From Pseudomonas asiatica (GTDB taxonomy: Bacteria > Pseudomonadota > Gammaproteobacteria > Pseudomonadales > Pseudomonadaceae), in assembly GCF_009932335.1 (NCBI RefSeq), contig NZ_BLJF01000001.1, positions 744,001 through 808,000 of the forward strand: a stretch of 64,000 bases of DNA. The letters run 5' to 3'. The position numbers and the translations under genes are program-made. Below, one piece after another: positions 17,654 through 60,503 of this stretch (positions within the stretch are counted from its first letter, which is position 1; every line of letters begins with the position of its first letter). The notes below the pieces were generated by a model, which made no database searches, was not told the origin of the DNA, and saw only the letters and a list, made by a program, of their open reading frames with translations.

Positions 17654-18388
17654 GTTGTACCGTCGGTTTCCGGGCTGCCGGAAACGGCGTTCGGCACACA
17701 CGACGTCTCATGGTCGGTGCCAAGGTGCGCAAAGGGTGGCCGGGCCACCCCCGTGTCGAGCGACGTTCGGCACCAGCCGGTTGCCCAGCCTGCCGTTGTC
17801 GCGACGACGCGTCCTGTTTGCTGCGGTGCCAACAAGGCCCCGGTGGCTTCGAATTGGAATCCGAATCAACCAAGCGGGCCTTGTGCACTCAGTCAGGAGG
17901 AGGAATCAACCGTCAGCCGTGGACGCCCGGGGGCATCTGTTCAGGACCTTATCCGCTCGCCAGCCGCTCAGTGGGCTGGTGGCCGGACGCGGTGCTACAC
18001 GGTCCGAGGGCTGTGCATCTCCACCCTGCACGTATCCCTGATAATTCGGGTGCTGCCGCGCGCTGAATCCGCAACGGGTTGCATTTTTCGCCAGCGCAGG
18101 TACTGCGCTGGCGCCATTCATGTCCAAGGCAGGTATTTCCGAAGCATTCGCCGGGCGTTGCGTGGAAGCGACGGGGCGGGCAGAGGTGCAGCGAAAAGAA
18201 TCGGGTAAGCAGGTGAAACACCGCACTTGTCGTTTTTTTTCGGTCTTCTCTACACAGCGCTGGTGGCGATTCCAGGCAATTCGGTAAACTGGCGAAAACC
18301 CCGTAGGACGGCCTCGCGTCCTGGAGAATTGCGTTGGTCAGGGACCGGCTCGGAGCCTGGTGCCGCTGGCCTGCCGCTTTTGGCGGCG
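17654..18388 (-). promoter_or_regulatory. Long 5' UTR of rne
   Basis: If the promoter at 18395-18423 is right, rne mRNA has a leader of about 735 nt with no gene in it. A strong hairpin lies at 18089-18113 (10-bp perfect stem CGCCAGCGCA, 5-nt loop). RNase E of E. coli autoregulates through hairpins in its 361-nt leader, and a Pseudomonas-specific leader motif (rne-II) has been described. I did not match this sequence to that model. An autoregulatory role is inferred. Confidence 0.6.
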
Positions 18389-21798: not shown

Positions 21799-22326
21799 AT
21801 GTTGAATGACCCGATTCCACCTCACGTTGACCCGCGCAAATTAGCCGATCGTGGCGTAACCCTTAACGGTTCGCTGCAGCTCGCTGATTTGGAAAGACTC
21901 TGCGACCCGCTTTCCGACAATGTCGGTACGGTGCAGGCGAAGTTCGATTTTGAACGAGATGAACAGCACGTGGTGGTTATCCACAGCGAGCTGGACGTCG
22001 AGGTCAAGATGGTTTGCCAGCGTTGTCTTGAGCTGGTCACCCTGCCGATCCACAGCGAATGTACATACGCCGTGGTGAAGGAGGGTGCGAATACCCAGTC
22101 GTTGCCGAAAGGCTATGACGTGCTGGAACTGGGCGAAGATCCTTTGGATCTGCAGGCATTGATCGAGGAGGAGCTTCTGCTCGCCTTGCCAATCGTGCCT
22201 GCTCATCATCCGGAAGAATGCCAGCAGCCGGCGGGCGCAGACGAGCCCGAATCGAGCAAGGACGAGGTATCGCGGTCCAACCCGTTCAGTGTTTTGGCGC
22301 AGTTAAAGCGTGACCCAAACGTTTAG
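21799..22326 (+). CDS. yceD: YceD/DUF177 family protein
   Basis: A 175-residue protein (MLNDPIPPHVDPRKLADRG) with the DUF177 metal-type motif CQRCLE near residues 73-78. The family is linked to large ribosomal RNA accumulation and always sits upstream of rpmF. 13 bp separate it from rpmF. It is expressed from the promoter at 21761. Confidence 0.93.
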   Translation: MLNDPIPPHVDPRKLADRGVTLNGSLQLADLERLCDPLSDNVGTVQAKFDFERDEQHVVVIHSELDVEVKMVCQRCLELVTLPIHSECTYAVVKEGANTQSLPKGYDVLELGEDPLDLQALIEEELLLALPIVPAHHPEECQQPAGADEPESSKDEVSRSNPFSVLAQLKRDPNV

Positions 22327-22339
22327 GAGTTAATCAATT

Positions 22340-22522
22340 ATGGCTGTTCAGCAGAACAAAAAATCCCGCTCTGCCCGTGACATGCGCCGTTCGCACGACG
22401 CCCTGTCGGAAAACGCGCTGTCGGTAGAGAAAACCACCGGTGAAGTACACCTGCGTCACCACGTTTCGCCAGAAGGCGTATACCGTGGTCGCAAAGTGGT
22501 CGACAAGGGCGCTGACGAGTAA
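22340..22522 (+). CDS. rpmF: 50S ribosomal protein L32
   Basis: A 60-residue basic protein, [20 protein letters not shown], of normal L32 length. It is the zinc-free form without the CxxC pair. A TTAGGAG site precedes the ATG. Standard yceD-rpmF-plsX order. Confidence 0.98.
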
Positions 22523-25607: not shown

Positions 25608-25635
25608 TTGAAAAGCGAACGTCTTTCTATAAAAT
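25608..25635 (+). promoter_or_regulatory. Probable acpP promoter
   Basis: TTGAAA at 25608-25613, a 16-bp spacer and TAAAAT at 25630-25635 (overlapping TATAAA). This would give acpP a short leader of about 45 nt that contains the sRNA target site described below. Confidence 0.5.
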
Positions 25636-25664
25636 TAGCCACCGGCCAGCTGCCTGACATATGT

Positions 25665-25679
25665 CCATTAGGAGTGAAA
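25665..25679 (+). promoter_or_regulatory. Predicted RgsA pairing site over the acpP ribosome site
   Basis: CCATTAGGAGT (25665-25675) is repeated exactly at 31933-31943, inside the sRNA gene but on its antisense strand, so sRNA and acpP leader can pair. With one G-U and three more A-U pairs the duplex covers 15 positions. It includes the AGGAG Shine-Dalgarno sequence at 25670-25674. Confidence 0.7.
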
Positions 25680-25686
25680 ACTAGGT

Positions 25687-25923
25687 ATGAGCACCATCGA
25701 AGAACGCGTCAAGAAAATCGTCGCCGAGCAACTGGGCGTCAAGGAAGAGGAAGTGACTCTCGAGAAGTCCTTCGTCGATGACCTGGGTGCCGATTCGCTT
25801 GACACCGTTGAGCTGGTGATGGCTCTGGAAGAGGAATTCGAGACCGAAATCCCTGACGAAGAAGCCGAGAAGATCACTACCGTTCAAGCTGCCGTAGACT
25901 ACGTCAAAGCCCACCAGGCCTAA
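25687..25923 (+). CDS. acpP: Acyl carrier protein
   Basis: A 78-residue acidic carrier of growing acyl chains. The phosphopantetheine site is S37 in [12 protein letters not shown]. The start follows AGGAG 12 nt upstream plus a closer AGG. It has its own likely promoter and a terminator-like hairpin after it, as expected for a gene expressed far above its neighbours. RgsA is reported to repress acpP in P. aeruginosa. Confidence 0.99.
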
Positions 25924-31029: not shown

Positions 31030-31812
31030 ATGCTCGTAGATTCCCATTGCCACCTCGACCGTCTGGACCTGAGCGCCCACCAGGGCTCCCTCGATGCTGC
31101 CCTGCAGGCGGCGCGTGAGCGCGGGGTCGGGCATTTCCTGTGTATTGGCGTCAGTGCCGAGAATGCTGGTGCGGTGAAGGCGCTGAGCGAGCGTTACGCC
31201 GATGTCGATTGCTCGGTGGGCGTGCACCCGCTGGACCTGGCGCCGGGCGAAACGCCGGCGCTGGAATGGCTGCTGCGCGAACTGGCTCACCCACATGTGG
31301 TGGCGATTGGAGAAACCGGGCTGGATTACCACTACGAGCCGGAAGCAGCCGAGTTGCAGCAAGCCTCGTTCCGCCTGCACCTGGAGGCCTCGCGGCAGAC
31401 CGGCAAACCGGTGATCGTGCATACCCGTGCGGCGCGTGCCGATACCCTGGCACTGCTGCGCGAGGCCAATCTGCCGCAGGCCGGCGTGCTGCACTGCTTC
31501 ACCGAAGACTGGGACATGGCCAAGGCGGCGCTGGACCTGGGGTATTACATTTCGTTGTCTGGCATCGTTACCTTCCGCAATGCCGATGCCCTGCGTGAAG
31601 TGGCGCGGCAGGTGCCGGTCGATCGTTTGCTGGTGGAAACGGATTCGCCGTACCTGGCGCCGATTCCGTATCGCGGCAAGCCGAATTTGCCGCAGTATGT
31701 GCGTGAGGTGGCGGAGTACGTGGCTTCGTTGCGCGGGGCCAGTTATGAGCAGTTGGCCGAACAGACCACTGCCAACTTCAAGCGTTTGTTCCCGTTGGCG
31801 CGGGTGGCCTGA
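31030..31812 (+). CDS. TatD family metal-dependent hydrolase
   Basis: A 260-residue TIM-barrel hydrolase with a divalent metal site: DSHCHLD at residues 4-10, GETGLDYHY near 98-106, HTRAA, and TDSPYLAP near 205-212. Homologues (TatD, YcfH) are DNases or deoxyribonucleases in DNA repair and fragmentation. E. coli has ycfH at this same place after holB. ATG 31030 is used because the conserved N-terminus begins there; the ribosome site is poor. Confidence 0.93.
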   Translation: MLVDSHCHLDRLDLSAHQGSLDAALQAARERGVGHFLCIGVSAENAGAVKALSERYADVDCSVGVHPLDLAPGETPALEWLLRELAHPHVVAIGETGLDYHYEPEAAELQQASFRLHLEASRQTGKPVIVHTRAARADTLALLREANLPQAGVLHCFTEDWDMAKAALDLGYYISLSGIVTFRNADALREVARQVPVDRLLVETDSPYLAPIPYRGKPNLPQYVREVAEYVASLRGASYEQLAEQTTANFKRLFPLARVA

Positions 31813-31892: not shown

Positions 31893-31928
31893 AAAAAAAA
31901 CCCGGGTTCTGGGGGGGGAATCCGGGTT
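31893..31928 (-). terminator. Terminator of the rgsA sRNA
   Basis: On the minus strand AACCCGG, a 16-nt loop containing eight C, CCGGGTT, then a T-run. On the plus strand there is no T-run after the stem, so it does not serve tatD. Confidence 0.88.
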
Positions 31929-32012
31929 AAGACCATTAGGAGTAAAACAAAGGTACGCGGTCCCTGAGCACCTTTATCGGCGCGCCACTTGGGGGGGATG
32001 CGCCGCGCCAAC
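31893..32012 (-). ncRNA. rgsA: Small RNA, probable RgsA (P16)
   Basis: A gene-free 400-bp gap holds a minus-strand unit. It has a -10 box CTAATACT (32026-32019), a first hairpin (GGCGCG/CGCGCC with a C-rich loop, 32009-31979), and a second hairpin (AAAGGU/ACCUUU, 31975-31949). A single-stranded stretch with ACUCCUAAUGG follows, then a terminator with AACCCGG/CCGGGTT and eight T. Length is about 120 nt. The place, after tatD, matches the remembered site of rgsA (PA2958.1) in P. aeruginosa, an RpoS- and Gac-dependent sRNA reported to repress fis and acpP. The exact 11-nt complement to the acpP ribosome site supports the name. Confidence 0.78.
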
Positions 32013-32018
32013 ACTTCA

Positions 32019-32026
32019 AGTATTAG
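32019..32026 (-). promoter_or_regulatory. RpoS-like -10 element of rgsA
   Basis: Minus-strand CTAATACT resembles the sigma-S extended -10 (CTATACT). It lies about 7 bp before the predicted RNA start, and I see no clear -35, as is common for sigma-S promoters. Confidence 0.5.
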
Positions 32027-32212
32027 TCAGCTTTGGCGCAGTGCCAGTGCATATTGATCGATTTTTAAACAAATTTGGAATACGCCCACGTTTCATTCCT
32101 CCCGCAGCGCATGGCCATAAGCATCGTGAAACACAGACATGCTTGGATGATCCGTGCAATTTCTTGCAAGTTAGGCATAATAAACCGCTTCGATTGTCAT
32201 CCAGTCCTTCCT

Positions 32213-45446: not shown

Positions 45447-45522
45447 GGGGCTATAGCTCAGCTGGGAGAGCGCCTGCATGGCATGCAGGAGGTCAGCGGT
45501 TCGATCCCGCTTAGCTCCACCA
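45447..45522 (+). tRNA. tRNA-Ala (GGC), copy 1
   Basis: 76 nt with anticodon GGC in the loop ATGGCAT and an encoded CCA. First gene of the array. Confidence 0.97.
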
Positions 45523-45594
45523 AATTCCGTCTGGCAGCCAAGGCTGTCGGGCAAGACCGGGTCCAGCAACCGGGTCTTGAAGGTAAGAAGGTTA

Positions 45595-45670
45595 GTCCCC
45601 TTCGTCTAGTGGCCTAGGACACCGCCCTTTCACGGCGGTAACAGGGGTTCGAGTCCCCTAGGGGACGCCA
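45595..45670 (+). tRNA. tRNA-Glu (TTC), copy 1
   Basis: 76 nt with anticodon TTC in CTTTCAC and acceptor GTCCCCT/AGGGGAC with CCA encoded. The spacer from Ala copy 1 differs from that in the other two pairs. Confidence 0.97.
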
Positions 45671-45723
45671 GTTTTGCACAAGCGATGTTTCAGGATGTCG
45701 CTGGGCCGAGAGGCTAGAAATCC

Positions 45724-45799
45724 GGGGCTATAGCTCAGCTGGGAGAGCGCCTGCATGGCATGCAGGAGGTCAGCGGTTCGATCCCGCTTAGCTCCACCA
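45724..45799 (+). tRNA. tRNA-Ala (GGC), copy 2
   Basis: Identical by eye to copy 1 over 76 nt; begins the duplicated Ala-Glu unit. Confidence 0.97.
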
Positions 45800-45840
45800 A
45801 TTTGCCGCGGTTCGCGAAAGCGGATCGGCACGAAGGTTAC

Positions 45841-45916
45841 GTCCCCTTCGTCTAGTGGCCTAGGACACCGCCCTTTCACGGCGGTAACAGGGGTTCGAGT
45901 CCCCTAGGGGACGCCA
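45841..45916 (+). tRNA. tRNA-Glu (TTC), copy 2
   Basis: Identical by eye to copy 1. It is followed by a terminator-like hairpin at 45942-45975. Confidence 0.97.
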
Positions 45917-45941
45917 CTTTTCCTGCGTTTTGCAGGGCTTT

Positions 45942-45975
45942 AAAGGCTCGTCGATTACTGATGAGCCTTTTGTTT
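45942..45975 (+). terminator. Hairpin with T-run between tRNA pairs 2 and 3
   Basis: AAAGGCTC and GAGCCTTTT form the stem around a 13-nt loop. It may be a remnant of the array's end before the last pair was duplicated. Confidence 0.65.
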
Positions 45976-45976
45976 C

Positions 45977-46052
45977 GGGGCTATAGCTCAGCTGGGAGAG
46001 CGCCTGCATGGCATGCAGGAGGTCAGCGGTTCGATCCCGCTTAGCTCCACCA
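45977..46052 (+). tRNA. tRNA-Ala (GGC), copy 3
   Basis: Third identical 76-nt copy; starts only 2 bases after the hairpin at 45942-45975. Confidence 0.97.
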
Positions 46053-46094
46053 TTTCTGCCGCGGTTCGCGTAAGCGGATCGGCACGAAGGTTAC

Positions 46095-46170
46095 GTCCCC
46101 TTCGTCTAGTGGCCTAGGACACCGCCCTTTCACGGCGGTAACAGGGGTTCGAGTCCCCTAGGGGACGCCA
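46095..46170 (+). tRNA. tRNA-Glu (TTC), copy 3
   Basis: Third identical 76-nt copy. The Ala-Glu spacer is nearly the same as in pair 2, showing a tandem duplication of about 253 bp. Confidence 0.97.
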
Positions 46171-49487: not shown

Positions 49488-49550
49488 GTACGCGATGCCG
49501 AAGTCGGGTCGCGTAATGACTTACTTGCTGAATCTCAGGAGTTCATGACC
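49488..49550 (+). promoter_or_regulatory. ROSE-type RNA thermometer in the ibpA leader
   Basis: Hairpin 1 is TACGCGA/TCGCGTA (49489-49515). Hairpin 2 (about 49516-49547) pairs UUGCU with AGGA of the ribosome site (49537-49541), leaving the G of UUGCU bulged. That bulged-G helix is the mark of ROSE elements, which open on heating and free the ribosome site. ROSE elements are known before ibpA in Pseudomonas. Confidence 0.82.
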
Positions 49551-49994
49551 ATGACTACCGCTTTCTCTCTCGCTCCACTGTTCCGCCATTCCGTTGGTTT
49601 CGACCGTTTCAACGACCTGTTCGAATCCGCGGCACGTAACGAGGCCGGTAGCAGCTACCCGCCCTACAATGTGGAAAAGCATGGCGATGACCACTACCGT
49701 ATCGTGGTTGCTGCAGCCGGTTTCCAGGAAGAGGACCTCGACCTGCAGGTTGAAAAAGGTGTCCTGACCGTGACCGGTGGCAAGCGCGACAATGGCCCTG
49801 CTGAAGTGACCTACCTGCATCAGGGTATCGCGCAGCGCGCCTTCAAGCTGTCGTTCCGCCTGGCCGACCATATTGAAGTCAAGGCCGCCGGCCTGGCCAA
49901 TGGCCTGCTCAGCATCGACCTGCTGCGCATCGTGCCTGAAGAGGCCAAGGCCAAGCGCATTCCGATCAACGGCGACAAGCCAGCGCTGAACTGA
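49551..49994 (+). CDS. ibpA: Small heat-shock protein, IbpA/Hsp20
   Basis: A 147-residue ATP-independent chaperone that binds aggregating proteins. The alpha-crystallin domain runs about residues 35-125 (YPPYNVEKHGDDHYRI, VEKGVLTVTGGK). The C-terminal anchor is IVPE/KRIPI. ATG 49551 is 9 nt after AGGAG; ATG 49545 is only 3 nt after it. It has its own RpoH promoter, thermometer and terminator. Confidence 0.94.
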   Translation: MTTAFSLAPLFRHSVGFDRFNDLFESAARNEAGSSYPPYNVEKHGDDHYRIVVAAAGFQEEDLDLQVEKGVLTVTGGKRDNGPAEVTYLHQGIAQRAFKLSFRLADHIEVKAAGLANGLLSIDLLRIVPEEAKAKRIPINGDKPALN

Positions 49995-59909: not shown

Positions 59910-60503
59910 GCGACTTCAGGAGGCCGAGCGAAGGGATTGCGGAGGGAGGTGACGGGCATGGATGCCCGTCAAGCGCTGAGGCCCCATGGATGGGGCCTGC
60001 AGCGCGTCCTCCCGGGAGCAAGCCCGTAGCGAGGGGACCCCGGAGCGTAGCGCAGGGGCCGGATGATGGGAGCCGACGGTTTTTGGTTACTTTTTGCCAC
60101 GACAAAAAGGGACCCGCCGTAAGGGCGGAAAGGTGACTTGGCGCCACCATCGCGAATGAATGTCTACTCGATGCGAATGCCCACATCCAAAAGCCAAAAA
60201 GCCAAAAAGCCAAAAAGCTTAAGCGACGGTTTTGATATGGCGAACAGTCCGTTTGCGATGGCGACGCTGATTCACCTTTTCGCCCTTACGGCGAGTCACT
60301 TTTTGTCAAACGCGACAAAAAGTAACCAAAAAACGCTGCGCTCCCATCATCCGGCCCCTCCGCTACGCTACGGGGTTCCCTCGCGCCGGTCTTGCTCCCG
60401 GGAGCACGCGCTGCAGGCCCCATCCATGGGGCCTCAGCGCTTGACGGGCATCCATGCCCGTCACCTCCCTCCGCAAGACCTCTGCTCGGCCTCCTGAAGT
60501 CGC
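59910..60503. repeat. Long imperfect inverted repeat element, about 594 bp
   Basis: Arms 59910-60153 (244 bp) and 60255-60503 (249 bp) are imperfect reverse complements around a centre of about 101 bp. Both include 'gcgacttcaggaggccgagc', nested palindromes (gacgggcatggatgcccgtc; ggccccatggatggggcc) and 'ggttactttttg'. It carries no convincing gene and lies between asd and usg. Similar blocks recur in many Pseudomonas genomes, from memory. Confidence 0.85.
60185..60222. repeat. Tandem repeat of aaaaagcc in the centre of the element
   Basis: Four to five 8-bp units (CAAAAAGC) in the centre of the long inverted repeat. Confidence 0.75.

Follow-up and report, generated by a model that had tools for sequence, protein, structure and literature searches.

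In enterobacteria, there are Hfq-dependent small RNAs that block the Shine-Dalgarno (SD) sequence with a single-stranded seed. The RgsA-acpP pair described here is like them in that a single-stranded seed lies over a ribosome site and in that the RNA ends in a terminator with a U tail; it is different in the small RNA itself, in the sigma factor and in the target, and no homology is claimed. Much closer is RgsA of Pseudomonas aeruginosa, for which portions of the literature describe control by RpoS, a need for Hfq and repression of acpP by base-pairing. According to passages in reviews, direct base-pairing of RgsA with acpP and fis in P. aeruginosa was reported by Lu et al. 2016 (Mol Microbiol 102:244; PMC9308961). 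Passages of two articles assign the acpP pairing in this organism to RgsA nucleotides 71-77 (PMC9308961, PMC5686131), and the latter names the partner as the acpP1 mRNA (PMC5686131). In other excerpts, RgsA inhibits translation of fis and acpP, with dependence on Hfq for acpP (PMC8395346), and an Hfq peak is found at the 3' end of RgsA (PMC6890931). A published length of 120 nt, the neighbourhood of tatD and an RpoS-type (T/G)CTATACT motif appear in a section of PMC2375449, and both 197 nt and 120 nt are given as the length in a passage of PMC9308961. How do these numberings relate to the seed? Nucleotides 71-77 would fall on it in the 120-nt numbering, and in a longer, Rfam-like unit the seed would lie at about 155-165, inside 141-175; the seed would be included either way.

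The locus described here has in common with that of P. aeruginosa the small RNA family, the target gene and the direct pairing, and nucleotides 71-77 fit the seed at nucleotides 72-82 counted from the transcript start placed below. The differences are that 15 contiguous pairs are formed here, in a probable P. putida-group genome, and that the P. aeruginosa side of the comparison is taken from the literature. The RgsA-acpP pairing is thus an already known, published interaction of P. aeruginosa, restated here in another species. What the sequence alone predicts is that the published repression also runs in this genome.

The RgsA gene, the acpP leader and their complementarity

The window, that is, the whole stretch of 64,000 nucleotides that was analyzed, contains both partners. 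Its assignment to the P. putida group is probable from AcpP, whose best matches in named genomes, a set from which the window's own genome may be missing, belong to Pseudomonas sp. CC120222-01a and P. ceruminis. The acpP gene for acyl carrier protein is located at 25687-25923 on the plus strand (NCBIfam NF002149/TIGR00517, above cut-off), and a consensus scan gives a putative promoter-like site, TTGAAA-16-TAAAAT, at 25608-25635 on the same strand with 10/12 matches. RgsA was identified on the minus strand at 31902-32097 by the covariance model RF00628, above gathering (200 bits vs. a cut-off of 88.4), and this model takes in the promoter region. The transcript of about 120 nt would correspond to 31897-32014 (minus strand), its start being placed from the published length and from the RpoS -10-like CTAATACT upstream, a putative counterpart of the published motif. 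A tatD homolog adjoins RgsA on the opposite strand (TatD family, 31174-31812, plus strand; TIGR00010 above cut-off). In the predicted fold, hairpin 2 occupies nucleotides 37-69 (31946-31978, minus strand), and sequence and fold together point to a terminator hairpin with a T run at 31897-31928 (minus strand). On the 5' side of the terminator lies the conserved seed ACUCCUAAUGGUCUU, a feature defined by this analysis and not by Rfam, for which RgsA of the window has the majority form of 72 of the 77 sRNA/acpP pairs compared below.

The 11-mer CCATTAGGAGT is common to the acpP leader, at 25665-25675 on the plus strand, and to the antisense strand of RgsA, at 31933-31943; the initial annotation had located both copies exactly, as searches of the window and of the whole genome confirm. 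In the leader it lies 12 to 22 bases 5' of the start codon at 25687. Two matches in the window compare with 0.01 expected, and none of 100 shuffles contained at least two. In the genome of 5.97 Mb, the exact 11-mer is present at these two places only, with one-mismatch variants at 13 further places. The worry that it might be frequent in other leaders is unfounded, as acpP is the only leader genome-wide with the exact 11-mer. The match can be extended to CCAUUAGGAGUGAAA of acpP (25665-25679, plus strand; positions -22 to -8 relative to the acpP start) and UUUUACUCCUAAUGG of RgsA (31947-31933, minus strand; nucleotides 68-82 of the predicted transcript); re-derivation gave the same 15 contiguous pairs, one of them G-U, that had been claimed, with AGGAG of acpP covered. 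That the sRNA site is in an unpaired linker holds for the most part: the linker between hairpin 2 and the terminator is mostly free in the predicted fold, but the two U of the 15-mer at nucleotides 68-69 close hairpin 2 and two weak pairs form within the linker. All 15 nucleotides (68-82) are unpaired together with a predicted probability of 0.11, and those of the 11-mer (72-82) with one of 0.24.

In the cofold, hairpin 2 opens and both of its arms pair with a further acpP stretch at 25683-25695 (plus strand), made of AGGUA (25683-25687) and UGAGCACC (25688-25695), so that predicted pairing reaches into the start codon; the sRNA bases opposite UGAGCACC are not the same in near relatives. It is to be noted that a seven-codon ORF, ATGTCCATTAGGAGTGAAAACTAG (ATGTCC...TAG, 25661-25684), overlaps the RgsA-complementary site and is conserved only in near relatives. 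As the leaders of other genera are without its start or stop, this short ORF was rejected as a real element.

Rank of acpP among leaders and the proposed repression

The leader set covers the window and 400 kb in 20 sampled stretches, about 8% of the genome, and with approximate gene starts it comprises 359 of 371 predicted genes (53 leaders from the window), 12 having been left out for want of 100-base flanks. In the accessibility-corrected ranking, which considers contiguous helices only, the acpP helix of -14.4 kcal/mol is first of the 359 (next -8.5, mean -2.2, SD 2.4), and its cofold interaction of -26.8 is also first (next -18.8, mean -7.1, SD 3.1). The initial annotation had asked whether acpP would rank first; by both measures it does so among the sampled leaders. 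Is the RgsA seed simply a generic anti-SD sequence? Within the last 30 bases of the 359 leaders, AGGAG is found in 66, AGGAGT in 16, TTAGGAGT in two (acpP and rpmF) and CATTAGGAG in two (acpP and an unnamed gene of 101 amino acids); the rarity of AGGAGT and of TTAGGAGT argues that it is not.

In a comparison that spanned 12 genera, the RgsA and acpP sequences from 20 genomes were set against 150 leaders of this genome, and only 0-5 of the 150 equalled or surpassed acpP in 17 of the 20 genomes. Pairing was weak in the sampled genomes of genera g8, g17 and g6, for which 23, 17 and 14 of the 150 leaders, respectively, were equal or better. The cofold z for acpP is -7.2 in this genome, whose predicted pairing is the strongest of the 20; for 16 of the remaining 19 genomes it ranges from -2.1 to -5.3.

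From these models, it is highly probable that RgsA covers the acpP SD sequence and blocks its translation in this species. The complementarity, the rank among sampled leaders, the predicted accessibility and the conserved core are observed. RgsA would be made in stationary phase under RpoS, and its seed ACUCCUAAUGG, flanked by hairpin 2 and the terminator and for the most part single-stranded, would pair over the acpP SD sequence. We infer both that repression takes place in this species and that the pairing blocks 30S binding. AcpP would then be lowered, and fatty-acid synthesis would decrease as growth stops, probably with the assistance of Hfq. The direct mechanism suggested in the initial annotation is supported as far as the SD block is concerned, by the first rank and by the published base-pairing in P. 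aeruginosa; it is not a new proposal, and the 11-mer on which it was built is not conserved as such.

The conserved core and genomes without RgsA

Could the match consist mostly of the SD sequence itself? In this alternative, an anti-AGGAGU seed hits several ribosome sites, and the CCATT flank of acpP is an accident of lineage that the sRNA did not select; we give it somewhat less than an even chance. Of 198 Pseudomonadaceae genomes, 172 gave an RgsA match, which was over the cut-off in 157. Eighty better-scoring regions were picked from the matches listed among the 172, and after omission of four without acpP, 76 regions and the window made 77 pairs, in which weak RgsA copies are under-represented because the weakest of the 172 are absent from the listed matches; genus g6, with 13 genomes, is represented by three well-scoring ones, and of its ten weak ones G005 and G022 were read. 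Among these 77 pairs with well-scoring RgsA, 72 share an identical seed, ACTCCTAATGGTCTT, and the five variants (four in g17, one in g8) retain ACTCCTAA. The Hfq peak described for the RgsA 3' end in part of PMC6890931 could be an alternative reason for conservation of the downstream half of the seed.

On the mRNA side, AGGAGT is universal (77/77) and its flank is variable: 14 leaders have the exact 11-mer CCATTAGGAGT, 44 have CCATAGGAGT and 19 have other types. As CCATAGGAGT is one base shorter than the 11-mer, one sRNA base would bulge; in g9 and g12, for example, leaders with CCATAGGAGT form 8-11 contiguous pairs. Conservation of the 11-mer and covariation of the two sites had both been named as checks, and neither was found: over 12 genera, cognate combinations had a mean of -30.3 vs. 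-29.7 for mismatched ones (permutation p = 0.20), in a test that is weak because the seed and the SD sequence hardly vary. Judged from the alignments, conservation holds for the AGGAGU core and not for the 15-mer, which is a lineage-specific extension of this core; since only the core is conserved, it is the core that mutational tests should target.

Seventeen genomes were examined on the opposite side, 13 without an RgsA match under stricter filters and four with weak matches (G002, G005, G022, G124). AGGAGT is present in the acpP leader of 12 of the 13, CCAT is located within two bases of AGGAG in nine, and one (G013) has even the exact 11-mer. The leader motif, as these sequences indicate, stands without the sRNA, and with AGGAGT kept in 12 of 13 such genomes its conservation is not creditable to RgsA. 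Nine of the 13 were searched again with permissive Rfam thresholds over about 11 kb around acpP, and RgsA was found in none of them. The seed pattern, with up to two mismatches, matched in 15 of 20 genomes (the 13 and seven others), none exactly among the matches listed, and gave no match in G013, G019 and G034; in nearly all genomes, a reversed control pattern gave at least as many matches. At four inspected matches, three from the 13 genomes and one from G005, no terminator-like context was seen. The alternative also agrees with several other leaders of this genome that offer 8-12 contiguous pairs. What speaks against it is that acpP is well ahead of the sampled leaders, in which AGGAGT and TTAGGAGT are as rare as described above.

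The g6 genomes G005 and G022 have a diverged RgsA of 61.8 and 56.7 bits, below the cut-off, in which the upstream part and the terminator are kept and the ACUCCU linker is missing; the ACUCCUAAUGG linker has thus been lost in part of g6. A locus at L046:16347-16542 matches this seed-less RgsA at 92%. The acpP flank is CCTTTAGGAGTG in G005 and G022 vs. CCATAGGAGTG in three g6 genomes with the seed. Seed loss in g6 was probably one event, which is proof of nothing alone.

Other candidate targets of the seed

Because the ranking sample is about 8% of the genome, apbC, pal, yajC, accB and others, which were taken from genome-wide patterns, and also fis were scored apart from the 359 leaders. The apbC leader (gene named by NCBIfam NF008669) contains GCCATTGGGAGT (G000:C1:3779913-3779923; L141), forming 12 contiguous pairs with RgsA at -12.2 kcal/mol, which would rank second behind acpP. 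Energies in this genome are -7.6 for pal and -7.1 for yajC, and further candidates are weaker. As a conserved target yajC was rejected, since of 30 leaders only that of this genome has CATTAGGAGT. For fis, with a start codon chosen by the analyst, the same seed gives a weak helix of -0.75 yet a high cofold value of -18.5, and for this reason a different RgsA contact is possible in the model. A weaker second site, TTAGGAGT at 22323-22330 on the plus strand, precedes rpmF (22340-22522), a gene upstream of acpP in their shared fatty-acid gene cluster; the site is conserved in the named Pseudomonas loci listed, whose rpmF leaders have TTTAGGAGT, but the pairing is weak (-5.4).

Is the seed, then, conserved mainly for other targets, with pal/oprL as the candidate and acpP as one member of a small envelope regulon? 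This second alternative is rather unlikely in our view. The pal/oprL leader has CATTAGGAG 5' of ATGGAAATG in 77 of 198 genomes (e.g. G000:C1:3652660-3652684), all RgsA-positive and from six genera: 30/33 in the genus of this species, 25/25 in g9, 18/18 in g12, 2/2 in g4, 1/1 in g8 and 1/2 in g2. As a control, 112 of the 198 genomes have AGGAG 5' of ATGGAAATG, in part at other genes. Of the genomes without an RgsA match, G019 has CACTAGGAG in the pal leader vs. CATTAGGAG in its RgsA-carrying congener G001, and G013 has AAAAGGAG; relatedness is ignored in the association and in the G019/G001 comparison alike, which counts against the alternative. So do the modest pal energy in this genome, the conservation of further parts of the pal leader, the single pal leaders of g5, g6, g10, g15, g16, g17 and g19, which are without CATTAGGAG, and the absence of the pattern from 95 of 172 RgsA-positive genomes, a count in which genera with another pal start are missed because the pattern demands ATGGAAATG.

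A related idea, which we offer tentatively and hold to be doubtful, is that RgsA, through its near-invariant seed, targets AGGAGU and so represses a small envelope regulon consisting of acpP, pal/oprL and, to a lesser degree, rpmF, which stands close to the start of the fab cluster. If it were true, RpoS would reduce membrane-lipid synthesis and outer-membrane anchoring together, and the g6 lineage that kept the sRNA and lost the seed would be a natural loss-of-target experiment.

That the complementarity arose by chance and regulates nothing in this species is very improbable: by our own estimate an SD-complementary seed would reach 11 nt by chance in about one leader per genome, but the leader that matches is that of the reported target acpP, and the cofold z values given above are strongly negative here and negative in those 16 further genomes.

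The window carries other RNA elements as well. At 45447-46170, tRNA-Ala(ggc) and tRNA-Glu(ttc) alternate in three tandem pairs, a ROSE_3 heat-sensor element is located at 49489-49556 (plus strand) and an rne-II leader at 17663-18035 (minus strand), and the TwoAYGGAY RNA has two partial matches, at 59946-60011 (plus strand) and 60402-60467 (minus strand), scoring 52.7 and 49.5 bits vs. a cut-off of 43.
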